A stretch of 64,000 nucleotides of DNA, taken from positions 124,001 through 188,000 of the forward strand of contig JAGWUV010000001.1 in the NCBI GenBank assembly GCA_028875875.1. The letters run 5' to 3'. This DNA comes from Bacteroidota bacterium (GTDB taxonomy: Bacteria > Bacteroidota > Bacteroidia > Chitinophagales > Chitinophagaceae). Every line of letters begins with the position of its first letter. The stretch's first letter is position 1. Positions 16,629 through 28,651 of the stretch are shown piece after piece. The position numbers and the translations under genes are program-made. Below the pieces are notes generated by a model, which made no database searches, had not been told where the DNA came from, and saw only the letters and a program-made list of their open reading frames with translations.

Positions 16629-18002
16629 TTATTGTTTGTTCTGTTGATACCATTCCCTGAAACTCTGTTTAGGAGGTGCAGGCATTTCCCTGTTTTTATA
16701 CCAGGGATTGAGGGACTTATTATTGAAAAGCCAGGGCATCCATCGCATAACTTTTCTTCCCATACCTCCTGCCATACGATAGATGCGTGGATGTGACAGT
16801 ACAAAGGCCATTCCTTTCATCATTATATTTTTCCCTGAACCGCCGTAGCCTTCTTTCATCAGTACCTGCCGCCATTTCCAGAGCTGGTCGTGAATATCAA
16901 TTTTCACCGGGCATACATTAGAACAAGAACCGCATAATGTAGAAGCAAAAGGAAGATCTGCATTCTTACGCATATCGATATTTGGCGCAAGAATAGAACC
17001 AATAGGTCCTGCCACGGCATTGTGATAGCTGTGGCCACCGCTTCTGCGGTATACGGGGCAGGTATTGAAACAGGCCCCACAGCGAATACACTTTAAAGAA
17101 TTACGAAAATCGGCCCGGCCCAATTGCCTGGAGCGGCCGTTATCTACAATTACAATATGCATTTCAGCGCCTTTGCGTGGCTTATGAAAGTGGCTGGAAT
17201 AAGTGGTAATCGGTTGGCCGGTAGCACTACGGGCCAGCAGGCGGAGGAATACGCCCAGGTGCTCTGCCTTAGGAATCATTTTCTCCATTCCCATACAGGC
17301 AATATGTACCCTTGCTGCATGAACACCCATATCGGCATTGCCTTCGTTTGTACAAACTACTATGCCACCTGTTTCCGCGATAGCAAAGTTTACACCTGTT
17401 ATCGCCACATCAGAGGCGATGAATTTATCTCTCAGGTGCAAGCGGGCCGCATGTGTGAGGTAGGATGGATCTATATTATCTTTTTCCGTTCCTAAATGCT
17501 CATGAAAAGTATCGCTTACATCCTGTTTTTTCAGGTGAATCGCCGGTAATACAATATGGCTGGGTAACTCGTGGCGAAACTGCACAATCCTTTCTCCCAG
17601 ATCGGTATCTACCACATCTATGCCTTGCTGTATGAGGTATTCGTTGAGATGGCATTCTTCCGTAAGCATTGATTTGCTCTTCACAATCTTATCAATTCCC
17701 GCTTTTTTTATGATGCTGTGCACTATGGCATTGTGTTCCGCAGCATCGGCTGCCCAATGCACCTGTACACCATTGGCCAGTGCATTCTGTTCAAACTGCG
17801 TAAGGTAATCGTGCAGGTTGGAAAGTGTATGCTCTTTAATGTGCGATGCCGTAGCTCTCAGTCCTTCCCATGCTTCGATAGTATGAGCGGCACGGTCTCT
17901 TTTGGTTCTTACAAACCAAAGAGTATCATCATGCCAGTCTGTACGCGGCTCATTTGCAATAAATTGGGCTGCCTTTTCGGAGTGTGTAGTGGTTCCTTGC
18001 AT
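16629..18002 (-). CDS. lutB: LutB, lactate utilization iron-sulfur protein
   Basis: A 457-residue protein with an N-terminal LUD domain (about 60-300) and a ferredoxin-like part holding two 4Fe-4S motifs, CIRCGACFNTCP near 307 and CGSCSNVCP near 357. LutB passes electrons in the LutABC lactate dehydrogenase. It lies between lutA (5-base gap) and lutC (2-base gap). Confidence 0.94.
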   Translation of the reverse strand: MQGTTTHSEKAAQFIANEPRTDWHDDTLWFVRTKRDRAAHTIEAWEGLRATASHIKEHTLSNLHDYLTQFEQNALANGVQVHWAADAAEHNAIVHSIIKKAGIDKIVKSKSMLTEECHLNEYLIQQGIDVVDTDLGERIVQFRHELPSHIVLPAIHLKKQDVSDTFHEHLGTEKDNIDPSYLTHAARLHLRDKFIASDVAITGVNFAIAETGGIVVCTNEGNADMGVHAARVHIACMGMEKMIPKAEHLGVFLRLLARSATGQPITTYSSHFHKPRKGAEMHIVIVDNGRSRQLGRADFRNSLKCIRCGACFNTCPVYRRSGGHSYHNAVAGPIGSILAPNIDMRKNADLPFASTLCGSCSNVCPVKIDIHDQLWKWRQVLMKEGYGGSGKNIMMKGMAFVLSHPRIYRMAGGMGRKVMRWMPWLFNNKSLNPWYKNREMPAPPKQSFREWYQQNKQ

Positions 18003-18007
18003 GATGA

Positions 18008-18748
18008 TCAGTTAAAATGTGCGTTAAGAATTTCAGCAATGTGAATCACTTTCACTTTACTGTGCTGCCTTTTTAAAATACCTTCCATGTGCATGAGGCA
18101 GCTCATATCAACACCGGTGATATAATCAACATGATTGTCTTCGTGTTCCTGTACCCTGTCTTTTCCCATCTTGGCCGATACGGCTTCTTCAAATACACAG
18201 AAGGTGCCGCCAAAACCACAACACTCATCAACCCTTTGTGGTTTACAAAGTGTAATACCTTTTACCATATTCAATAAGGTTTCAGGTTTGGAGAAGGCGG
18301 GTAACACACGTTCACTCATAGAAGATAAATGCAGGCCGCGCTGGCCATGACAGCTGGAGTGTATGCCTACTTTAAAAGGGAAAGATGCCGTAAGATGGTC
18401 TATCTTCAAAACATCTATTAGGAATTCACTGAGTTCGTATACCTGTTTGCGTATTTTCTCGGCTTCTGCTTCCTTTCCTTCTACATGCAAATGATCTTTT
18501 ATATGCAGTGTGCAGCTCCCTGAAGGACAAACGACATAATCCACACCTGAAAAATTATCAACAAAGTTTTTATTGCACCCTTCACTGATGTGAGAAAAAC
18601 CGGAGTTGGCCATAGGCTGGCCGCAGCATGTTTGTTCTAAAGGGAAAACAACTTCACAACCTAACTTTTCTAAGAGTTGCATGGTGGCAATAGCCACATT
18701 AGGATAGAACTGGTCTACATAACAAGGCACAAACAAACCTACTTTCAT
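18008..18748 (-). CDS. lutA: LutA, (Fe-S)-binding oxidoreductase subunit
   Basis: A 246-residue protein with two cysteine-rich CCG domains (CCGQPM near 42, CCGFGG near 183), as in LutA and glycolate oxidase GlpC/GlcF subunits. It is the first gene of lutABC. A perfect 18-bp palindrome lies 22 bases upstream of its start. Confidence 0.94.
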   Translation of the reverse strand: MKVGLFVPCYVDQFYPNVAIATMQLLEKLGCEVVFPLEQTCCGQPMANSGFSHISEGCNKNFVDNFSGVDYVVCPSGSCTLHIKDHLHVEGKEAEAEKIRKQVYELSEFLIDVLKIDHLTASFPFKVGIHSSCHGQRGLHLSSMSERVLPAFSKPETLLNMVKGITLCKPQRVDECCGFGGTFCVFEEAVSAKMGKDRVQEHEDNHVDYITGVDMSCLMHMEGILKRQHSKVKVIHIAEILNAHFN

Positions 18749-19077
18749 TATATCACAAACTTTAGAATTAAAAATCGATCGATTTTTTAACTCTTATAGC
18801 CTAGCATAGGCCGCTAAGATAGCGCAAGAATTAAAAAAACTGTCATTTAGTATCCTGTACGGGCAGAACGGTGCAGCCATTTTTAATTTTCAAAAGATAA
18901 AGCTATACGCTTCCCGGGTTCCAATTTTCAATTTATTTGAGCATTTTCAATACTATCTTAACCGTGCAAACAAAAATCAACCGTGTTTTCAGCAATTCTT
19001 AAAAAAAGATATATGTAAACAGATTTACATTTACGCAACTGATGTTGTATATTAGATAATCATACAACCCCTTAGCA
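18749..19077. other. Intergenic region between divergent lutA and the Hpt gene
   Basis: There is no open frame here. It holds the palindrome 18770-18787 and, near the Hpt gene, a short inverted repeat tgtaaa-caga-tttaca (about 19014-19029). A near-match -7 element for lutA (taaagtttg on the minus strand, 18756-18764) is one base longer than the consensus. Confidence 0.5.
18770..18787. promoter_or_regulatory. Perfect palindrome upstream of lutA, candidate operator
   Basis: Nine-base arms of aaaaatcga and its complement meet without a spacer. It lies 22 bases before the lutA start, in the position of the spacer upstream of a near-match -7 element. It could bind a lactate- or stress-responsive repressor; no regulator gene is adjacent. 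Confidence 0.5.
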
Positions 19078-19446
19078 ATGGAGTATATTTTAAGAGGAGA
19101 AGATATTGTGGTGAATATGAGTTTTTTAGAGGAGTTGGCAGGAGATGATCCTGCCACAATTAGGATTCTAATTGAAACATTTATTGCTACTGTTCCCGCT
19201 TCGGTACAGCAGCTGAAAGAAGCTTTTGAACAGCATGACTGGAATACCTTACGCCAAAAAGCCCATTCTCTCAAATCATCCTTATCTGTTATCAAGGTAG
19301 ATAATTTACAGGAGCATTGTAACGTTATAGAAACAACAGCCTCTGCAGATAATACAGAGAAAATACATTTATTGATAACAGAAATAAATGAAAAGGCAAA
19401 GAAAGGTACAGGCCTCTTGCTGCAGCTGTTGCAACAACTGGAATAA
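19078..19446 (+). CDS. Hpt domain phosphotransfer protein
   Basis: A 122-residue four-helix Hpt protein with phosphorylatable His63 in KAHSLKSS. It carries no kinase domain, so it would receive phosphate from a separate or hybrid kinase. It is followed 55 bases later by a single-domain receiver and then the polysaccharide synthase genes, which suggests a phosphorelay that controls that machinery. Confidence 0.9.
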   Translation: MEYILRGEDIVVNMSFLEELAGDDPATIRILIETFIATVPASVQQLKEAFEQHDWNTLRQKAHSLKSSLSVIKVDNLQEHCNVIETTASADNTEKIHLLITEINEKAKKGTGLLLQLLQQLE

Positions 19447-19501
19447 ATAGAGTGGAATAATTTATTTTCGTAAGGTCCTTTGAAGAACTTAAATCAATAC
19501 T

Positions 19502-19867
19502 ATGTTTAAAATTCTAATTGCAGAAGACGAACCTCTGATGTTAAAAACCCTTGAATTAAAACTGCAAAAAGAAGGGTACCAGGTAATTGCCTGTAATGAT
19601 GGAAGGGAAGCTTTGCAAAAGATCGAATCCGAGCAGCCGCAATTAGTTATTACCGATATTATGATCCCCTATGTTTCAGGGTTGGAAATTGTGCGCCATG
19701 TAAAAGCCATGAACACTTCTTTACCAGTGATCGTACTTTCTGCTATGGGGCAGGAGAAGACTGTTGAAGAGGCGTTTGAACTAGGGGCCGATGATTATAT
19801 TACCAAGCCTTTTAACCTGAATGAGCTGGCCATTCGTGTAAAGCGATTAACCAGGAATATCAGGTAA
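19502..19867 (+). CDS. Single-domain response regulator (CheY-like)
   Basis: A 121-residue receiver only: EDE acidic pair at 8-10, Asp52 in VITDIMIP, SA switch and Lys in ITKPFN. With no output domain it must act by protein contact, by phosphate transfer with the upstream Hpt protein, or on the HEAT-repeat or synthase proteins encoded next. Confidence 0.93.
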   Translation: MFKILIAEDEPLMLKTLELKLQKEGYQVIACNDGREALQKIESEQPQLVITDIMIPYVSGLEIVRHVKAMNTSLPVIVLSAMGQEKTVEEAFELGADDYITKPFNLNELAIRVKRLTRNIR

Positions 19868-19990
19868 AACTCTATTGTTGTTTCATAAATCCAATAACGT
19901 TTGATTATTCCCCCATGTTCTACTCGGCAGTGCCTGTTACCGGTTTTGGCCAGGGCAGGAAACGGGTTCACCCGGTTTACCTCCCATATT

Positions 19991-21061
19991 ATGCAAACGG
20001 AATACCTCTGGGTGGCCATCATTATTTTGTTTATTGTCTTTCTCTTAACCGTGATGTTTATTTTCATACATCTCAAGATGTTGAAGTACCGCTTCTTGTA
20101 TAAAAAAAGTATTCGGAATAAGCTGGAGGTTTGGATCACCCAGTCTATACTGGATGATATTAGTGATGAAGGTGCGGCTTTTGAGATCCCCGAGAAATTC
20201 CGCCGTATTCTTCAAAATAAAGTAGCTCGCCAGTTTGTAATTGATGAACTGGTGAGCAGTAAAAAAAACCTTACCGGAACAGCAGGTAACAATATTGTAA
20301 AGTTGTACGAGGAACTTGACCTGAAAAAAGATTCACTTGAGAAAATGAGCAGTACCCAATGGTACATCAAGGCAAAAGGTATTCAGGAACTGTACCTAAT
20401 GGATCAGAACGATATGCTTAAGCGTATTTATAAAAACATCAATAGCCGAAATGAATACATACGCATGGAAGCCCAAACCGGTATTATCCACATGAGCGGA
20501 TTCGATGGCCTTCGTTTTTTAGATGTAGTGGCTTATCCTTTAACCGAATGGCAGCAACTGAAATTACTTGACCAGCTGAAGCTGAACGATGTAAAGGAAA
20601 ATTTTTCCCAATCCATCATACGCTGGCTTACTTCTCATAATGATACAGTTATCATTTTTGCTTTAAAGCTGGCGGCCGAATACCAGCAATTTTCTGTTCA
20701 CAACGATGCTGCAAGAGCATTGCATCACACCAACGGCAACGTACGTTACCAGGCTATTAAAACATTGAAAAGATTGGCTAATGAAACAACAGCCTCTTTA
20801 CTGGCCAATCATTTTCCTAAAGAGAACCAGCGCAACCGCCTGCTTATCTTAGAAGTGCTTACAGATATAGGTAGTGTGGAGCAAACCAATTTTCTGGAAA
20901 ACCTTTTAAATGTAAAAGATATTACCATTCAGCTAAAAGCAGCCACGGCACTGGCCAAAGCAATTCCTGGCGGTAATGAGTTATTATATCAAAAAGCAAT
21001 TGCACAACCGGATTTATTAAGTGCAGTGTACCTGCATGTAAAAGCAGCTTTAAAACTATGA
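19991..21061 (+). CDS. Membrane-anchored HEAT-repeat protein
   Basis: A 356-residue protein with one N-terminal membrane helix (about 5-28) and a cytoplasmic helical-repeat domain. HEAT-like units are visible from about 120 onward (for example NVRYQAIKTLKRLA near 250 and LKAATALAKAI near 320). The ATG at 19991 places the membrane helix at the N-terminus; an upstream frame to 19901 adds an implausible stretch. Its stop overlaps the synthase start by 4 bases (ATGA). It is probably a scaffold or regulatory partner of the synthase, a role inferred from linkage only. Confidence 0.75.
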   Translation: MQTEYLWVAIIILFIVFLLTVMFIFIHLKMLKYRFLYKKSIRNKLEVWITQSILDDISDEGAAFEIPEKFRRILQNKVARQFVIDELVSSKKNLTGTAGNNIVKLYEELDLKKDSLEKMSSTQWYIKAKGIQELYLMDQNDMLKRIYKNINSRNEYIRMEAQTGIIHMSGFDGLRFLDVVAYPLTEWQQLKLLDQLKLNDVKENFSQSIIRWLTSHNDTVIIFALKLAAEYQQFSVHNDAARALHHTNGNVRYQAIKTLKRLANETTASLLANHFPKENQRNRLLILEVLTDIGSVEQTNFLENLLNVKDITIQLKAATALAKAIPGGNELLYQKAIAQPDLLSAVYLHVKAALKL

Positions 21062-24000
21062 CCTGGAGTACTATACCGGAAATATTTTTTGAAGTGATCA
21101 CTGCCCTGGTATTTATTTACTCGGCACTGCTGGTTATTGTGTATGTGCTTATTGCTTTGTATTCTATTGGAGGAACAAAAAATTATTTAAGGAAAAATAG
21201 TTTTACCGATTACCGTTTGCTCGCTGCTTCTCCTCACATTCCTTCTGTAAGTGTATTGGCTCCTGCGTATAACGAAGGAAAAACAATTGTAGAAAACGTT
21301 CGCTCTTTATTATCTATCTATTACAGCAATCTTGAAGTAATTATAATTAATGATGGCAGTAAAGATGATAGCCTTGTACAGCTGATAGAAGCTTACCAGT
21401 TGGAAAAAGTAGACTTCCTGGTGAATTACCAAATTCACACAAAGGAAGTAAGGGGCATTTATAGAAGTAAAAATCCTGTTTACAATAAGCTGGTAGTAGT
21501 TGATAAAGTAAATGGTGGTAAGGCAGATGCGTTGAACGTAGGCATTAACATTGCATCGAACGATTATCTTGTTTGTATTGATGTGGATTGTGTGCTGGAG
21601 CAGGATGCGCTTTTAAAAATGATGAAGCCTTTTATGGAACAAACAGATGAGAGGGTAATTGCCTCAGGCGGTGTAGTACGTATTGCTAACTCATGCATTA
21701 TTGAAGATGGGAGACTGGTAAAAGTAAAACTACCCGACGATTATTTACCCCGTGTACAAACGCTGGAATACATCAGGGCTTTTATTTTAGGCAGAATGGC
21801 CTGGAGCCGGTTAAATGGCTTGATGCTTATTTCCGGAGCATTTGGTGCTTTTGATAAAGATATTGTACTGAAATGCGGCGGCTATAACCATAACACGGTA
21901 GGAGAAGATATGGAACTGGTAGTACGGATGCGGCGTTATATGGAAGAAAGGAAAGAAAAATATCGTGTTACGTATATTCCCGATCCGTTATGCTGGACAG
22001 AAGCACCGGCTACATATACTATTTTAGGAAGGCAGCGTAACCGATGGACAAGAGGTACTTACGAAACCCTTATGCTGCATAAAAAAATGTTTTTTAATCC
22101 TAAGTATGGCATAATGGGGTTGTTGAGTTACCCTTACTGGTTCTTTTATGAGCTGAGTGCCCCACTGATTGAGTTTCTTGGATTTGTCGCTTTCTTTTTC
22201 TTTGCTATAGCAGGATTGATCGACTGGAGCTTTTTCTTTCTATACCTGCTAATGATCATCTTTTTTGGATACGCTTATTCTGCTTTTGCTATATTGATGG
22301 AAGTTACTTCTTACAATATGTATCGGCGAAGAACAGATATTCTGCGTTTGATCTTAACAGCTATATCCGAACCTTTTTATTTTCATTCTTTTGTTGTGTG
22401 GAGCGCTATCAAAGGATTTATTGACCTGCTGAAAAAAAATAAAGGATGGGGAGAAATGACAAGGCAGGGCTTCGCCAAAAAAACTACTCCACAAGTACAG
22501 CCTGTATTAGTGACCGCAACAACCGCAACAACAGTTGTAGCTTCTGCAGATTTGCCCGAGCGGGAAAATAAACAACCTGCAGTATTAACAGTCTTCTTAT
22601 TGCTATTAAGGGTTGGTAGAAAATATACGGGTTTTGCAGTGGTGTTAGCCATGTTATTGCTATTATGCAGGTTTGTAGAATGGGGCCTTGATTTGTATAC
22701 TTACGGTACACCATTATTTGCAGCAAAAACTTTAATGATAAGCGTTTTACAAGACGCGTCTTTTATTGTAAAGGCAACAGTAGCTTTATTTATTCCTTTT
22801 TTGGTACTCTATTTTATTCATAAGAAAACAGCAGTTGTTTTTCTTTCAGTTCTAAGTATACTTCTATGTCTTACACAGTTATCGCTTTCTGAGTATTTTA
22901 TTAAAACCCTTGTTCCTTTGGGTGCTGACTTGTGGAGTTATTCATGGAATGATATCCGGCAAACGGTTGGTGCGTCAGGTGGTATAAATATTACTGTAAC
23001 GCTTCTCTTACTGCTTTTTGTTTTATTAAGTGTAGCAGCCCTTGCTGTCATTCCTAAAAAAATAAAACCCGGCAATGCTACGGCACTGTTGGTTGCACTT
23101 GTGTATACAGGCTTATTAATGAGTGGCTTTACATCTAAAGCAGAGGAATGGAAGCCCGGCCCTGAAAACAGCAATAACCTGGCAATTAATAAAACCAATT
23201 TCTTTATCGCTAAATCTTTGGAATACTTTTTCCCGATGGAGCCTGATGTTGATATTTATGCAGCCAATTATTTACTTAGCCCTACCGATAAAAGCATTGT
23301 AAAATTTAGGTATACGGATGAAAAGCAATATCCTTTTTTGCACGTAACCGATAGTAGCGCTGATGTATTCACTCCTTTTTTTGATACGGCTGCTGTGCAT
23401 CCAAACATTGTGATCATTGCTGTTGAAGGGCTGGGAAGAGCTTTTTGTGGCGATGGGGCTTACCTGGGTAGTTTTACGCCCTTCATTGATTCGTTAGCCG
23501 GGAAGAGCTTGTACTGGGAAAATTTCTTAAGTGAAGGTGGAAGAACATTCGCTTTACTTCCTTCACTTACAGCATCCTTACCGTTTGCATCAAATGGTTT
23601 TTTGGAAATGAAGGGCCATATGCCTGATCATCTTTCTTTATTTTCTATTCTTAAAAACAATCATTACCAAACCGGATTTTATTATGGTGGCGACAGTCGT
23701 TTTGATAATATGGATTACTTTTTGCAACGCAATGGTGTTGAGCATATTGTTGATGAAGCTGCTTTTGCTGGAGGGTATACAAAAATGCCTGCCGTAAATG
23801 GTTTTACATGGGGCTATGATGATAAAGAATTGTTCAGAAAATATTTTGAAACACTGACGGCTGCAAAAGAACCGTATTGTAATTTCTTGCTTACAGTAGC
23901 ATCGCATAATCCTTTCTTAATTAATAATGAAGATGTTTATCTTCAAAAATTTGAAGCAAGGATGAATGCCTTGGGTTTTTCAGATAAAGTGAAGCAGCAA

Positions 24001-24594
24001 TATCGTAACTACAAATACCAGTATGCCAGTATTTTGTTTGCAGATGATGCAGTACGGCAATTGATAGAACAATACAGGCAACGACCCGATTTTGATCATA
24101 CTGTATTTCTTATTACAGGTGATCACCGGATGCCTGAAATACCAATGAACAGTAAGATCGACCGCTATCATGTTCCATTGATCGTTTACTCACCTTTACT
24201 AAAAAGAAGAAGCACATTTTCTTCTGTTTCCACACATTTCGATATTACACCCACATTGCTGCAATGGCTGCACAGACAGTACGCCTTGCAGATACCCGAT
24301 ACGGTGAGCTGGTTGGGAAGCGGGATTGACAGCAGCCGATCGTTCAGAAATATTCATGCGTACCCGCTGATGCAAACAAAGACCGATATTAATGATTTTA
24401 TTATGGGAGATTATATGCTGAATGGAAGTGACTTGTATAAGATTAATACCAGGCTTGAATTAGAACCCGTTAGTAACAATGCACTGGAAGAACAACTAAA
24501 GGCGGGGTTCGACCGGTTTAAAATTAGGAATACAGTCATCATCAATGGCGGCAGGCTCTTGCCTGATAGTATTTTTAAACGCTTTGCACCTTAG
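21058..24594 (+). CDS. Fusion of a GT2 polysaccharide synthase and an LtaS-type phosphatase-superfamily domain
   Basis: A 1178-residue membrane protein. The N-terminal half is a processive family-2 glycosyltransferase: membrane helices near 10-35, Asp99 (INDGS), DVD at 175-177, ED at 283-284, QRNRW at 326-330, then helices at about 360-460. After a linker (470-508) several more helices (508-700) lead to a periplasmic alkaline-phosphatase-superfamily domain like LtaS or BcsG. Its likely metal and nucleophile residues are Glu790, Thr830, His950 and Asp1022-His1023. The synthase would extrude a polymer and the second domain could add phosphoglycerol or phosphoethanolamine, which is inference. 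The polymer is unknown. The gene is coupled to the HEAT protein and converges on the next gene with a 5-base gap. Confidence 0.85.
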   Translation: MTWSTIPEIFFEVITALVFIYSALLVIVYVLIALYSIGGTKNYLRKNSFTDYRLLAASPHIPSVSVLAPAYNEGKTIVENVRSLLSIYYSNLEVIIINDGSKDDSLVQLIEAYQLEKVDFLVNYQIHTKEVRGIYRSKNPVYNKLVVVDKVNGGKADALNVGINIASNDYLVCIDVDCVLEQDALLKMMKPFMEQTDERVIASGGVVRIANSCIIEDGRLVKVKLPDDYLPRVQTLEYIRAFILGRMAWSRLNGLMLISGAFGAFDKDIVLKCGGYNHNTVGEDMELVVRMRRYMEERKEKYRVTYIPDPLCWTEAPATYTILGRQRNRWTRGTYETLMLHKKMFFNPKYGIMGLLSYPYWFFYELSAPLIEFLGFVAFFFFAIAGLIDWSFFFLYLLMIIFFGYAYSAFAILMEVTSYNMYRRRTDILRLILTAISEPFYFHSFVVWSAIKGFIDLLKKNKGWGEMTRQGFAKKTTPQVQPVLVTATTATTVVASADLPERENKQPAVLTVFLLLLRVGRKYTGFAVVLAMLLLLCRFVEWGLDLYTYGTPLFAAKTLMISVLQDASFIVKATVALFIPFLVLYFIHKKTAVVFLSVLSILLCLTQLSLSEYFIKTLVPLGADLWSYSWNDIRQTVGASGGINITVTLLLLLFVLLSVAALAVIPKKIKPGNATALLVALVYTGLLMSGFTSKAEEWKPGPENSNNLAINKTNFFIAKSLEYFFPMEPDVDIYAANYLLSPTDKSIVKFRYTDEKQYPFLHVTDSSADVFTPFFDTAAVHPNIVIIAVEGLGRAFCGDGAYLGSFTPFIDSLAGKSLYWENFLSEGGRTFALLPSLTASLPFASNGFLEMKGHMPDHLSLFSILKNNHYQTGFYYGGDSRFDNMDYFLQRNGVEHIVDEAAFAGGYTKMPAVNGFTWGYDDKELFRKYFETLTAAKEPYCNFLLTVASHNPFLINNEDVYLQKFEARMNALGFSDKVKQQYRNYKYQYASILFADDAVRQLIEQYRQRPDFDHTVFLITGDHRMPEIPMNSKIDRYHVPLIVYSPLLKRRSTFSSVSTHFDITPTLLQWLHRQYALQIPDTVSWLGSGIDSSRSFRNIHAYPLMQTKTDINDFIMGDYMLNGSDLYKINTRLELEPVSNNALEEQLKAGFDRFKIRNTVIINGGRLLPDSIFKRFAP

Positions 24595-24599
24595 CAAAA

Positions 24600-25778
24600 T
24601 CAATTATTGTTGTAATAATCATTCAATATTCTTGTAAGAAGTGGCCTGTAAGCTTTCCAAAAAAAACTTTCCCGTTCTTCGGGATCTGCGGTATTATACA
24701 TGATGAAGTCGATGTAAGGTATTCCTTTAAAATGAGAACTAACAAGGTTTACAGGGCTATCACTAAAGTCTGCGGAGAAGTAAAAAAACCGATAATCGTT
24801 GTTCCTATGTACCGTTATGGCAGGGAATAGAGAGGGAATACCGGCTTGTTGTAATAGCTGTTTACCTTTTGCATTGGCATCTATGGAAAAGGAAGCAATC
24901 GTATGATTGAAACTACTGTCGATCTTAATTACATCAAACCAGAATGAATATTTTATAGAAGCAGGTAATCCATAATGCTGTTGCTCTTCAATGCCAGCTT
25001 TTATTCTTGGTAATTCATCATTCAACTCTTTATCTTTTTCAAGAACAACAACATTATCTCCATCTTTTATAAATACAATACCGCTTTTGGTAAAAGGCCA
25101 TCTGTTATGATGCTGTTCTTTGTAACTCTTAATAAGCCAGCGTGGAATATCTTTATTTTCTGTAGTATCGAGAGAGGTGAAATAGCGTCCGATCCAACCG
25201 GTCCACTGCATACCAAAACTGTGTTCAAACTGGGTACGAATCATTGAAGAAGTAGGTGCACCCAGGCAGTTAAACTCTGTAATGATCAGTTTATGTTTTG
25301 CCTTCATTTGTTGTAAAAAATAAAGATCTTCTTCACTCATGCCACCATACAATATGCCTTCCTGTGGTAATGCGGAAGTAGTAGTGTACCAGTCTTTTTT
25401 ATAAATCCCATATGCATCTGCCAAATAAATGGCCTGTGCATCATCACTTAATTGTTCAAGCTGGCTTTTGTTAAAACGTTCCAGTCCTCTCACAATATAT
25501 TTTCCATTAACAGAAGGAAAGAATCCAAAATAATCTCTCTGTGGTTGATACAATTCAGTTTTGTTCTTTGTAAACTTCTCATAATTCAGTACCCAGTTGA
25601 GTGATCTGTGTGCCTGAATTTTTTGTGTAAGCACTGTCTTATCAATAATGGCAATAGTTAATTTTTTTGTGGGTGAAGAAAGCCATGCAAGCCACATCCA
25701 TACAGGAGAGCCGAGTACCAGTAACAATAGGATAACCTTAAGAAACTTCCTGTATTTTTTTAAAAACGGTGCAGCCAT
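24600..25778 (-). CDS. Membrane-anchored protein of unknown function in the polysaccharide locus
   Basis: A 392-residue protein with one N-terminal helix (about 13-32) and a large extracytoplasmic domain. I do not recognise the family. Notable segments are IYLADAYGIY near 120, GGMSEED near 145, ITEFNCLGAPTSS near 170 and GWIGRYF near 195; the alternation suggests an alpha/beta fold. The last 19 bases of the frame's upstream neighbour (the TPR/barrel gene) overlap its start. From position it may modify, cleave or guide the polymer in the periplasm, much as PgaB does in PNAG systems, but no deacetylase motif is seen. Confidence 0.6.
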   Translation of the reverse strand: MAAPFLKKYRKFLKVILLLLVLGSPVWMWLAWLSSPTKKLTIAIIDKTVLTQKIQAHRSLNWVLNYEKFTKNKTELYQPQRDYFGFFPSVNGKYIVRGLERFNKSQLEQLSDDAQAIYLADAYGIYKKDWYTTTSALPQEGILYGGMSEEDLYFLQQMKAKHKLIITEFNCLGAPTSSMIRTQFEHSFGMQWTGWIGRYFTSLDTTENKDIPRWLIKSYKEQHHNRWPFTKSGIVFIKDGDNVVVLEKDKELNDELPRIKAGIEEQQHYGLPASIKYSFWFDVIKIDSSFNHTIASFSIDANAKGKQLLQQAGIPSLFPAITVHRNNDYRFFYFSADFSDSPVNLVSSHFKGIPYIDFIMYNTADPEERESFFWKAYRPLLTRILNDYYNNN

Positions 25779-27019
25779 GCTAAGCCTATTTGGTATTGAT
25801 TGCCTTTTGTATCGGGAAGGTATTCCTGGTTAAGCCAGTTGGCATCTGCCGATAATACATTCATTTTAGAAACTTTTTTCCTGAATGTTATGCCGGCTTT
25901 GTAGGTTTTAAGTTTGGCCGTGAAAATTTGTATGGCATTGTAACGGTCATCAGGAGAAATACCATAACCTGCTGAAAATGCCACTACATCATCTGCAGAG
26001 CCATAATAATAATTAGCAATAACGTTGTAGGATGCCGAAGGCGTATTTACATAGGTTGATGGTGTAACATAAGTACGGGCACCGAACAACCAGCTTTTAT
26101 AATATTTTCCAACATAGGCTGTGTACACCCAGGTAGGTGTTCCGCTGAATAAAAGATAACGAACCCCCAGTTCGCCTTCATAGCTTTTAGGAAGATTGGC
26201 ATAAAGAGAAAATCCGCCCCGCCACTGTGGAAAAACACCATTATTATTATCGCAGTAAGCAACATTTACATAACTGTAAAAAGTTTTTGAGATATGCGGA
26301 TAGGCTTCCGCTTCATACTGTACTGCATTTTGTGCAAAACGATTGGCATAGTTAATGCGGCCTGTAACAACACCTATGGGAGTAGTTCTGCCATAATCCA
26401 CACTAACCAGATGCCAGGGATCCGAGAATTGTTTATCGAAATACACAAAATCATAACTCACATCTATTTTATTTTTTGATGCCGATTCCCTGATCGAATT
26501 GGCTAAAGCCCTTGCCGCAGTATTATTTCGATTAATAGAAATAAGTTTCTGAATGGTGGCTTCAGCATTTTCGTATTGTTGTAATGCATTTAGAACCTTG
26601 GCTTTTCTCAATAACAATTCTTCTGAGGAAGGATGATATTGTAAACCTTTATTACAAATAGCCAATGCGTTATCATAATGATTATTCCAATATTCCACAT
26701 CGGCATAAGCAACGGAGGCATCTTCATATTCCGGTTGAATATGTAAAGCGCTGTCAAAACAATAACGTGCACTATCGTAATGGTTTGTCCATGAGTAAAT
26801 CCTTCCTAAAAATATCCAAAGATCAGCGTAACCGGGGCTTTTGGTAATGGCCTTGTTCAGGTATTGCTTGGCAGTGTTATAATCTTTTTGCGTAAAAGCT
26901 GCGGTGCGTGCCATTTGAAAAAGGCCGTCGGCTGAAGTAGAATCCTGGGCAATGGATGCAGTGCTGAAAATAAAATAGCAACCAATGATAAGCAGGAGTT
27001 TTTGTACGCATTTCTGCAT
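25760..27019 (-). CDS. YaiO-like TPR and outer membrane beta-barrel protein
   Basis: A 419-residue protein with signal peptide (cleavage near SIAQ), TPR repeats over about 28-170, and a C-terminal beta-barrel of about 230 residues that ends in Phe, as outer membrane proteins do. The layout resembles a small PgaA/BcsC: periplasmic TPRs joined to a barrel for polymer export. Together with the GT2-LtaS fusion and the adjacent periplasmic protein it forms a plausible synthesis-to-export set. Confidence 0.8.
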   Translation of the reverse strand: MQKCVQKLLLIIGCYFIFSTASIAQDSTSADGLFQMARTAAFTQKDYNTAKQYLNKAITKSPGYADLWIFLGRIYSWTNHYDSARYCFDSALHIQPEYEDASVAYADVEYWNNHYDNALAICNKGLQYHPSSEELLLRKAKVLNALQQYENAEATIQKLISINRNNTAARALANSIRESASKNKIDVSYDFVYFDKQFSDPWHLVSVDYGRTTPIGVVTGRINYANRFAQNAVQYEAEAYPHISKTFYSYVNVAYCDNNNGVFPQWRGGFSLYANLPKSYEGELGVRYLLFSGTPTWVYTAYVGKYYKSWLFGARTYVTPSTYVNTPSASYNVIANYYYGSADDVVAFSAGYGISPDDRYNAIQIFTAKLKTYKAGITFRKKVSKMNVLSADANWLNQEYLPDTKGNQYQIGLAWLHRF

Positions 27020-27162
27020 AGGACATGTTTACTTTTAATAGTTCTTAAAGGTAAAGCATTATGAAAAATATAAGTAGAAAGATTTATGCTTTTGAGGAAG
27101 TTATTATTTCTACTCAATGGCAGTTGCGGTAATCAGTTTATATTCGCAACAAAGGATGAATT

Positions 27163-27777
27163 ATGCAGCCAATAAAAAATATCATATTCGATTTAGGTGG
27201 CGTTTTTATAGATATTCATTACCAGAAAACAGAAGATGCATTTATTGATTTAGGTGTTACAGATTTTCATACACTGTTCACGCAACATCATGCTTCTGAT
27301 ATTTTTGAATTGCTTGAAACAGGGAAATTATCCCCCGAAGCGTTTTATGATGCTTTTCGTGCAACTACGCAATTATCACTTTCCAATGAACAAATCAAAA
27401 CAGCATGGAATGCGATGCTGGGAAATTTTGGAATGGAAAAAATAGAGTGGCTAAGATTTATCAGGAGCAAATACAATATCTTCCTTTTCTCCAATACCAA
27501 TCAAATACATTACGATGGATTTATGGAGATCTACCGCGAGCAAACAGGAAGAGAAGATTTTAATGATCACTTCATCAAAGCATATTATTCGCAGCATATT
27601 GGTGTTAGAAAACCCTATCCTGAATCATTTCAATACATACTGAAAGAACAAGGTTTAAATGTTTCGGAAACACTGTTTATCGATGATACGCTGAAAAATA
27701 TAGAAGGTGCAAAAGCAGTTGGGCTGCAAACCATTCACTTAAATGCCCCGGTTTCGGTGATAGAATTAGGCTTGTGA
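27163..27777 (+). CDS. HAD family hydrolase
   Basis: A 204-residue HAD-superfamily IA phosphatase. Motif I is IIFDLGGVFID; motif II Ser is in FLFSNTN; motif III Lys is in RKPYPESF; and motif IV is FIDDTLKN. The substrate is unknown. It is a stand-alone gene. Confidence 0.9.
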   Translation: MQPIKNIIFDLGGVFIDIHYQKTEDAFIDLGVTDFHTLFTQHHASDIFELLETGKLSPEAFYDAFRATTQLSLSNEQIKTAWNAMLGNFGMEKIEWLRFIRSKYNIFLFSNTNQIHYDGFMEIYREQTGREDFNDHFIKAYYSQHIGVRKPYPESFQYILKEQGLNVSETLFIDDTLKNIEGAKAVGLQTIHLNAPVSVIELGL

Positions 27778-27781
27778 GTAT

Positions 27782-28024
27782 TTATTTTACATCTTCAAAA
27801 TCAATATAATCATCAGAGCGAGTGGCCTCTTTTTTTGGCTGCTGCTGTTGTTGCATAGTTTGCCTGAATGCTTGTTGTTCGGCATATTGCCTTTTTTGTG
27901 TTTCCTGCATTTCTTTAAGCGTATCCTTCATTTGTGCAGTAGCTTTTCCCACAGGAACCACCAGTTCAAACACAAACTTATAAATGAGATAAAATAAAAA
28001 TCCCCAGATAATTAACTTCATCAT
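27782..28024 (-). CDS. DUF4834-like small membrane protein
   Basis: An 80-residue protein with one N-terminal hydrophobic helix (about 4-27), a Gln-rich coiled middle and the ending DDYIDFEDVK, as in the Bacteroidota DUF4834 family. The function is unknown. It converges on the HAD gene with a 4-base gap. Confidence 0.65.
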   Translation of the reverse strand: MMKLIIWGFLFYLIYKFVFELVVPVGKATAQMKDTLKEMQETQKRQYAEQQAFRQTMQQQQQPKKEATRSDDYIDFEDVK

Positions 28025-28087
28025 AAGGCTGTAAAGGTACAGCCATAGTGCTAAATCTTATTTCTTTTTGGCAATCGCTTAACCAAA

Positions 28088-28120
28088 TTTGGAATGTAAC
28101 TAAACATTCCACTACATTTG
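28088..28120 (+). promoter_or_regulatory. rimP-nusA-infB promoter
   Basis: TTTG at 28088-28091 and TACATTTG at 28113-28120 match the Bacteroidota -33 and -7 elements with 21 bases between. Transcription would start near 28125, about 50 bases before the rimP ATG. Confidence 0.65.
28091..28110. promoter_or_regulatory. Inverted repeat between the two promoter boxes
   Basis: Arms ggaatgt (28091-28097) and acattcc (28104-28110) are perfect complements around a 6-base spacer. The repeat fills almost the whole space between the -33 and -7 elements, where a bound repressor would block RNA polymerase. Confidence 0.5.
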
Positions 28121-28140
28121 CAACGGAAAAAGAAACAAAG

Positions 28141-28165
28141 GAAGGGAACGGCAATCGTTCCCTTC
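28141..28165 (+). promoter_or_regulatory. 10-bp hairpin in the rimP leader
   Basis: Arms gaagggaacg and cgttcccttc are perfectly complementary around the loop gcaat, some 13 bases before the rimP ATG. No T run follows, so it is more likely a translational or processing element than a terminator. Confidence 0.5.
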
Positions 28166-28177
28166 TGCTTTATAGAT

Positions 28178-28651
28178 ATGTCAGCAACAGACCCACAGAT
28201 ACAACAAATACAAAAACTGGTAGACAAACTGCTCCTCGAAGAGCCGGAATATTTTTGTGTGAATGTTAAAATAAAGCCCACCAATAATGTAAAGGTTTTT
28301 ATGGATGGCGACAATGGTCTGGCTATTGAAAAATGCGTGCAATTCAATCGTAAACTATATAAGATGATTGAAGAAGAAGGTATGTATCCTGAAGGAGAGT
28401 TTAGCCTGGAAGTATCTTCCCCGGGAGTAGATGAACCTTTGAAATTGCCAAGACAGTACACCAAAAATATTGGCCGAACTGTAGAAGTGGTCTTTATTGA
28501 TGGTAGCAAAAAAGAAGGTAAACTGTTGCAGGTGGCCGAAGCCGACATTATTATAGAACACACGGAGGGCAAAGGAAAGAAAGCAGTAACACAACAATTG
28601 GTGATTCCATTTAGTAACATAAAATCAACTACCGTTCAAATTAAATTTTAG
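28178..28651 (+). CDS. rimP: Ribosome maturation factor RimP
   Basis: A 157-residue 30S assembly factor. The conserved core EFSLEVSSPGVDEPL near residue 75 is present, followed by the Sm-like C-terminal domain. The ATG at 28178 gives the normal length; an upstream in-frame start at 28118 lies inside the -7 box of the promoter and would run through the leader hairpin. It is first in the usual rimP-nusA-infB operon. Confidence 0.93.
   Translation: MSATDPQIQQIQKLVDKLLLEEPEYFCVNVKIKPTNNVKVFMDGDNGLAIEKCVQFNRKLYKMIEEEGMYPEGEFSLEVSSPGVDEPLKLPRQYTKNIGRTVEVVFIDGSKKEGKLLQVAEADIIIEHTEGKGKKAVTQQLVIPFSNIKSTTVQIKF

Follow-up and report, generated by a model that had tools for sequence, protein, structure and literature searches.

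Phospho-decorated exopolysaccharides, such as phosphoethanolamine (pEtN) cellulose, shape biofilms. OpgB is a membrane-bound transferase for glucans that uses phosphatidylglycerol (PG), and GacH is an LtaS-like transferase which is a separate protein and acts on a lipid-linked polymer. According to excerpts of the published accounts, the surface polysaccharide of group A Streptococcus carries glycerol phosphate on GlcNAc (PMC12282279), and in E. coli BcsA uses its N-terminal domain to recruit three copies of BcsG beside the nascent chain (PMC11379886, PMC11470070). BcsG is described in the same excerpts as having five transmembrane (TM) helices, the third and fourth of which (TM3 and TM4) are separated by interface helices (PMC11379886).

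The window analysed here, a 64,000-nucleotide stretch of a 3.5-Mb draft genome (97.5% complete) from the Chitinophagaceae, contains a single open reading frame (ORF) at 21058-24594 of the + strand that encodes 1178 residues, with an ATG start and zero internal stops. A Pfam scan of the product returned GT2 at residues 62-333 (PF13641, E = 2e-20; PF00535 also matched) and Sulfatase at residues 782-1071 (PF00884, E = 3.2e-32), and called no PilZ domain. The protein consists of a processive GT2 synthase followed by a complete LtaS-like protein, with five predicted membrane segments and a phosphatase-superfamily ectodomain. The uninterrupted ORF and the two Pfam domains bear out an earlier, sequence-only reading in which both activities had been assigned to one polypeptide. 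The GT half combines the GT2 fold with the D, DxD, (E)D and Q(x2)RW motifs of processive enzymes, and the second half combines the PF00884 domain with the catalytic Thr and the Glu/Asp/His metal ligands of LtaS/OpgB-type transferases. All of the key residues named in that reading are present, and 19 aligned fused proteins share them without exception (D99, D175/D177, E283/D284 and Q326/R327/R329/W330 in the GT2 halves; E790, T830, H950 and D1022/H1023 in the phosphatase-superfamily halves). This is a real and recurrent domain fusion, and as judged from these residues its active sites are intact. No description of a GT2/LtaS-like fusion was found in the open-access literature searched (subscription papers and preprints were outside the search). 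The features of the locus are collected in the table.

Table. Features of the fused gene and its neighbours, in window coordinates.
Feature	Coordinates	Strand	Basis and remarks
Hpt phosphotransfer protein	19078..19446	+	PF01627; separate or within a hybrid kinase in some relatives
Single-domain response-regulator receiver	19502..19867	+	PF00072
HEAT-repeat protein with N-terminal membrane segment	19988..21061	+	PF13646; 4-base overlap with start of fused gene
GT2 half (residues 1-475)	21058..22482	+	Pfam PF13641/PF00535, NCBIfam PgaC_IcaA, invariant residues, hydropathy
K/R-rich linker (residues 476-525), variable in length and sequence	22483..22632	+	Ends of stand-alone relatives
Membrane region of the LtaS-like half (residues 526-692) with five predicted segments	22633..23133	+	Hydropathy, alignment
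Phosphatase-superfamily ectodomain (residues 782-1071)	23401..24270	+	PF00884; PDB matches VP1736, LtaP, LtaS; conservation in 48 halves
U392, orphan membrane-anchored protein (392 aa)	24600..25778	-	Without Pfam or PDB family
TPR and YaiO-type outer-membrane beta-barrel protein	25760..27019	-	PF19413, 209 bits; TIGR04390, 166 bits (cut-off 32)

The kinship of the two halves was assessed with NCBIfam models and with profiles searched against E. coli K-12 enzymes. The best model for the GT half was PgaC_IcaA (140.9 bits, under the cut-off of 422.3), while that for the LtaS-like half was LtaS (56.6 bits, cut-off 970), with two phosphoglycerol transferase I models also matching below cut-off (44.3 bits, cut-off 574, and 40.6 bits). 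Because these equivalog cut-offs were missed, neither half is counted as PgaC, LtaS or OpgB proper. A profile of 58 GT halves scored 105.6 bits against PgaC and 23.7 against BcsA. A profile of 48 LtaS-like halves scored 48.6 bits against OpgB, the nearest of the E. coli enzymes compared, and 5.6 against LapC/YejM; with the same profile and with filters off, the full-sequence scores of BcsG, EptA and EptB were below zero. By these scores the GT half is PgaC-like but is not PgaC, and it lies so far under the cut-off that the sugar of the polymer is a guess. The second half is likewise placed on the OpgB/LtaS (phosphoglycerol transferase) branch, apart from BcsG/EptA. As to the earlier "LtaS/BcsG-type" label, homology to BcsG is rejected on its below-zero score. 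The cellulose frame of that reading likewise finds no support from homology, the GT half being nearer PgaC than BcsA, and the comparison with BcsG is one of analogy only.

The best solved relatives of the LtaS-like half are VP1736 (103.3 bits), LtaP and LtaS (3lxq, 4uop, 2w5q, 2w8d), with which it has its catalytic positions in common. Of the 48 LtaS-like halves, 47 have residues in these columns, and among them E790 is retained by 45, T830 by 44 (with two Ser and one Asn), H950 by 45, D1022 by 45 and H1023 by 47. The pocket is different. The FWNR stretch of LtaS, whose residues bind glycerol phosphate, aligns to FDNM in the fused protein, such that the glycerol-phosphate pocket positions of LtaS are not kept; VP1736, a Gram-negative protein deposited as uncharacterized, also reads FDNM. 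Separately, two split LtaS-like halves (L097:6733-9114 and L098:6719-9100) lack several catalytic residues and may be inactive, perhaps having turned into non-enzymatic subunits.

Structure prediction for the full protein from a 4-row alignment gave a model too poor for use (mean pLDDT 39.8), and topology was estimated from hydropathy and charge. An N-terminal membrane segment (16-34) precedes the GT2 domain, predicted to be cytosolic, which is followed by clear segments at 370-388 and 392-410 and an ambiguous one at 431-449. A K/R-rich stretch (450-525) then leads into the LtaS-like segments at 526-544, 569-587, 592-610, 647-665 and 674-692, with a marginal extra candidate at 546-564; weaker hydropathy windows, within both catalytic domains and also at 350-368 and 479-497, were excluded from the crossing count. 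Provided that 431-449 does not span the whole membrane, both the GT domain and the linker would lie inside and the phosphatase domain outside; if it does, the predicted orientation flips unless 546-564 crosses too. A conserved stretch (approximately 611-646) lies between LtaS-like segments 3 and 4, and this predicted layout matches the five-TM layout of BcsG, with its stretch between TM3 and TM4, as given in the excerpts cited above. Most stand-alone GT2s stop, with a short tail, shortly past a WGEMTRQGF motif, and stand-alone LtaS-like proteins begin with a short tail ahead of their first membrane segment. The fusion linker accordingly looks like a join of both tails, from proteins that relatives encode separately.

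We surveyed 294 genomes of the window's family and 395 genomes of the phylum, and read 57 related loci. Among the matches listed for the 294 family genomes, the whole or near-whole chain was found in 15 beyond the window's own, two of which (G160 and G033) have an in-frame stop between the halves, while a third (G016) ends at residue 739. Further fusions came from the phylum sample, where they fall in family-level groups f3, f4 and f5, outside the window's own, and the records matching the fused-protein query include Bacteroidetes and Chitinophagaceae MAGs. Both halves occupy one ORF at 23 of the 57 loci (full length at 22, with L048 reaching a contig end) and separate ORFs at 24, while the LtaS-like half is absent from 10; counting the window as well, 24 are fused. 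Besides the window there are 22 full-length fused orthologues, spread over four family-level groups of the phylum. They bear directly on the suggestion that two neighbouring genes were merged by a sequencing or assembly error, which the sequence-only reading had allowed for around 22440-22640. Two genes do stand at this place in many relatives, but these 22 other uninterrupted ORFs come from different genomes and assemblies, including the single-contig G295, G496, G590 and G384, and they exclude a joining error, the probability of which we consider negligible.

Many relatives encode the two halves as neighbouring genes. Several of these split pairs overlap by 4-47 bases (by computed start positions), and in two loci of the window's family (L056 and L060) the pair is in frame, 9 or 12 bases apart. 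The fused label changes at least 8 times on a tree of 58 GT halves, with 5 changes forced by well-supported branches, and at least 5 times on a tree of 48 LtaS-like halves, with 2 so forced; both trees came from fast searches that drew long-branch warnings, and the changes could as well reflect horizontal transfer or fission as fusion. By these comparisons the fusion is real, recurrent and optional, with halves joined, split or lost several times among relatives. The truncated gene of G016 (L061:10374-12689) keeps the GT half and the LtaS-like membrane part and has lost the ectodomain, its U392 gene being on another contig. Three fused proteins of group f5 (L089:7903-11715, L090:7477-11259 and L099:6609-10409) are extended at the C-terminus by a TPR-like stretch that matches YaiO in its TPR part, although Pfam called no TPR in that stretch of L099 at E 0.001; they hold synthase, decorator and perhaps an export adaptor in one chain.

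The fused gene lies in a conserved module, namely Hpt, receiver, HEAT protein, fused synthase, U392 and YaiO TPR/beta-barrel. Similar ORFs were found at related loci for the HEAT protein (54/57), YaiO (52/57) and the receiver (52/57, a count inflated because receivers are common and hybrid kinases were counted too), with some absences falling at contig ends. A plasmid of Emticicia oligotrophica has the annotated order response regulator, hypothetical protein, GT2, hypothetical protein, YaiO and LTA synthase family protein. The YaiO protein, by its domains, is likely to be the export channel. It places a TPR beta-barrel porin beside a PgaC-like synthase, as PgaA does in the PgaABCD system for poly-N-acetylglucosamine of E. 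coli. In contrast to that system, no PgaB-like deacetylase/hydrolase and no PgaD was recognised among the ten proteins scanned (16629-28620), and the window locus has a phospho-transferase half instead. The receiver, Hpt and membrane HEAT proteins (19078-21061) are tied to the synthase across the phylum and may offer a way of controlling exopolysaccharide synthesis without c-di-GMP.

A hydrophobic segment lies at the N-terminus of U392, and 35 columns are invariant across 22 relatives. A PDB search with the profile of these relatives gave one match, which was not credible (E = 0.18), and a Pfam search of them gave nothing credible (best E = 0.0045, in 1 of the 22); structure prediction from a 3-row alignment yielded a model too poor for use (mean pLDDT 36.6). 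The protein is present in 23 of the 294 family genomes, and all of its carriers but one (22/23, the exception being G215) also have the LtaS-like half. Among the matches listed, 29 genomes have the LtaS-like half (16 fused, in frame or truncated, including the window; 10 split; 3 fragments, in G192, G077 and G251), and 22 of them carry U392; of the 14 with the GT2 type (at least 55% identity) and no LtaS-like half, 1 carries it. Both counts were made by hand and disregard a more distant LtaS-like paralogue (about 800 aa, 31-36% identity). Fisher's test gives p = 4e-26 over the 294 genomes and p = 3e-5 over the 43 carriers among the matches listed, both uncorrected for kinship. Co-occurrence is weaker at the level of the 57 loci (half and U392, 23; half only, 24; U392 only, 1; neither, 9), a gap due in part to fragmented assemblies, with U392 on another contig in G237, G277, G016 and G033. 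No U392 lies near the fused gene in L049, L057-L059 and L089-L096. Since U392 tracks the LtaS-like half, we regard it as a candidate dedicated partner of that half and a candidate new accessory family.

We favour, with a probability of roughly 0.6, a reading in which the fused protein combines two enzymes in the inner membrane and belongs to a synthase-dependent exopolysaccharide system, its decoration activity coupled to polymerisation. Going by its family, the PgaC-like GT2 half would use a nucleotide sugar on the cytosolic side to build a glycan, which it would extrude, while family and intact residues together suggest that the LtaS/OpgB-like half, on the outer face of the same membrane, would load Thr830 with the phosphorylated head group of a membrane phospholipid and hand it to the nascent polymer. 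The gene neighbourhood suggests that the decorated chain would then exit via the YaiO TPR/beta-barrel, with U392 partnering the decoration half; control of the synthase probably falls to the receiver, HEAT and Hpt set. The fusion itself would hold the decorator at the synthase exit, the E. coli analogue being the recruitment of BcsG to BcsA. Coupling of this kind had been put forward in the sequence-only reading, and it is made plausible by the intact halves and by their repeated fusion or adjacency in one module. A different function can be envisaged for the phosphatase-like half, which might modify another envelope glycan or lipid, or hydrolyse a phosphodiester, and be joined to the synthase only for co-expression. 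The superfamily includes hydrolases, weak sulfatase matches were obtained, and among the matches listed the GT2 stands alone in 14 of the 43 family genomes with either half, which argues that it works without the LtaS-like half. We nevertheless consider this alternative improbable, because exactly these two halves are repeatedly fused or adjacent inside one export module. That they are found so across the phylum, with some pairs overlapping or in frame, counts in favour of the two-enzyme machine. Against the favoured reading stand the low score of the GT half against PgaC, the possible crossing at 431-449 that would flip the topology, the fused loci without U392 and, for its donor, kinship with phosphoglycerol rather than pEtN transferases.

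The earlier reading had left the donor group open, and this caution is upheld, since homology points to glycerol phosphate and the lack of any PgsA over cut-off to phosphoethanolamine. The same machine might use PG and attach glycerol phosphate, as in OpgB and LtaS, an alternative that we take seriously while placing it below even odds. The best NCBIfam matches are to LtaS and phosphoglycerol transferase I (all under cut-off), and OpgB is the sole clear E. coli relative of the LtaS-like half. Moreover, Lgt, which uses PG in E. coli, is present in the window genome, so that PG could be made by an unrecognised route. Set against this are the FDNM pocket and the fact that PgsA stayed below cut-off in the window genome and in 24/24 others of the fused set (which includes G160 and G033, with their in-frame stops, and the truncated fusion of G016). 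The window genome's single CDP-alcohol phosphatidyltransferase is PssA-like (105.7 bits to PssA, cut-off 107; 43.5 to PgsA, cut-off 109.1), and the best such enzyme in each of the 24 is 31-76% identical to it over most of the length. Five of six further CDP-alcohol phosphatidyltransferases fetched from the fused set were scanned, two being PIP-synthase-like and three without assignment, and five more fell outside this one-by-one classification. In a control, the PgsA cut-off was exceeded in only 6 of 14 known genomes, which makes a PgsA miss informative rather than proof. PS decarboxylase is present in the window genome. In the open-access literature searched on PG in the phylum, no statement decided the donor. 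The combination of Lgt with no PgsA over cut-off could itself mean that PG comes from an unrecognised enzyme or that lipoprotein maturation uses another lipid.

Homology alone would favour glycerol phosphate; with no PgsA over cut-off in the 25 genomes, phosphoethanolamine from PE seems slightly more likely as the donor group than glycerol phosphate from PG. Our favoured two-enzyme reading can be extended on this basis to a PgaC-like synthase joined to an OpgB/LtaS-branch enzyme that switched to phosphoethanolamine because PG is not made by the known route, with U392 as a dedicated accessory of a new family and with receiver/HEAT rather than c-di-GMP control. We offer this extended form tentatively, as rather unlikely to hold in every part.

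On the available excerpts, the BcsA-BcsG system likewise has a processive GT2 and a membrane-bound phosphatase-superfamily transferase at the nascent polymer, together with a TPR/beta-barrel exporter (PMC11379886). There, however, two proteins meet at 1:3 through the BcsA N-terminal domain, whereas here polymerase and decorator form one chain, with their ratio fixed at 1:1. Neither half is closest to BcsA or BcsG, and by analogy the protein appears to work like that pair, by covalent linkage, as a member of neither family. Unlike the fused half, OpgB is not joined to a synthase. GacH is likened to it by description, not sequence, through the glycerol phosphate decoration of a surface polysaccharide as given in the Streptococcus excerpt. 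Beyond what the sequence-only reading held, the fusion emerges as recurrent and optional, its neighbours as a conserved module, and U392 as tracking the LtaS-like half. Two candidates come out of the locus, a new accessory family and a control route independent of c-di-GMP, and with them a donor puzzle, in that an enzyme of the LtaS branch occurs where no PG synthase is recognised. Close relatives carry fused, split and decorator-free versions, which makes the value of tethering directly testable.

The window genome also encodes a second LtaS-like protein (L151:5012-7444, - strand; 810 aa, 35% identical). Its divergent neighbour (L151:7555-10986, + strand) encodes 1143 aa and combines GH18, polysaccharide deacetylase and GT2 domains, so that here again an LtaS-like enzyme is paired with a processive GT2. 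Genes for a GT2 and an 800-aa LtaS-like protein lie close together in other families too, for example in G437, G646 and G630.
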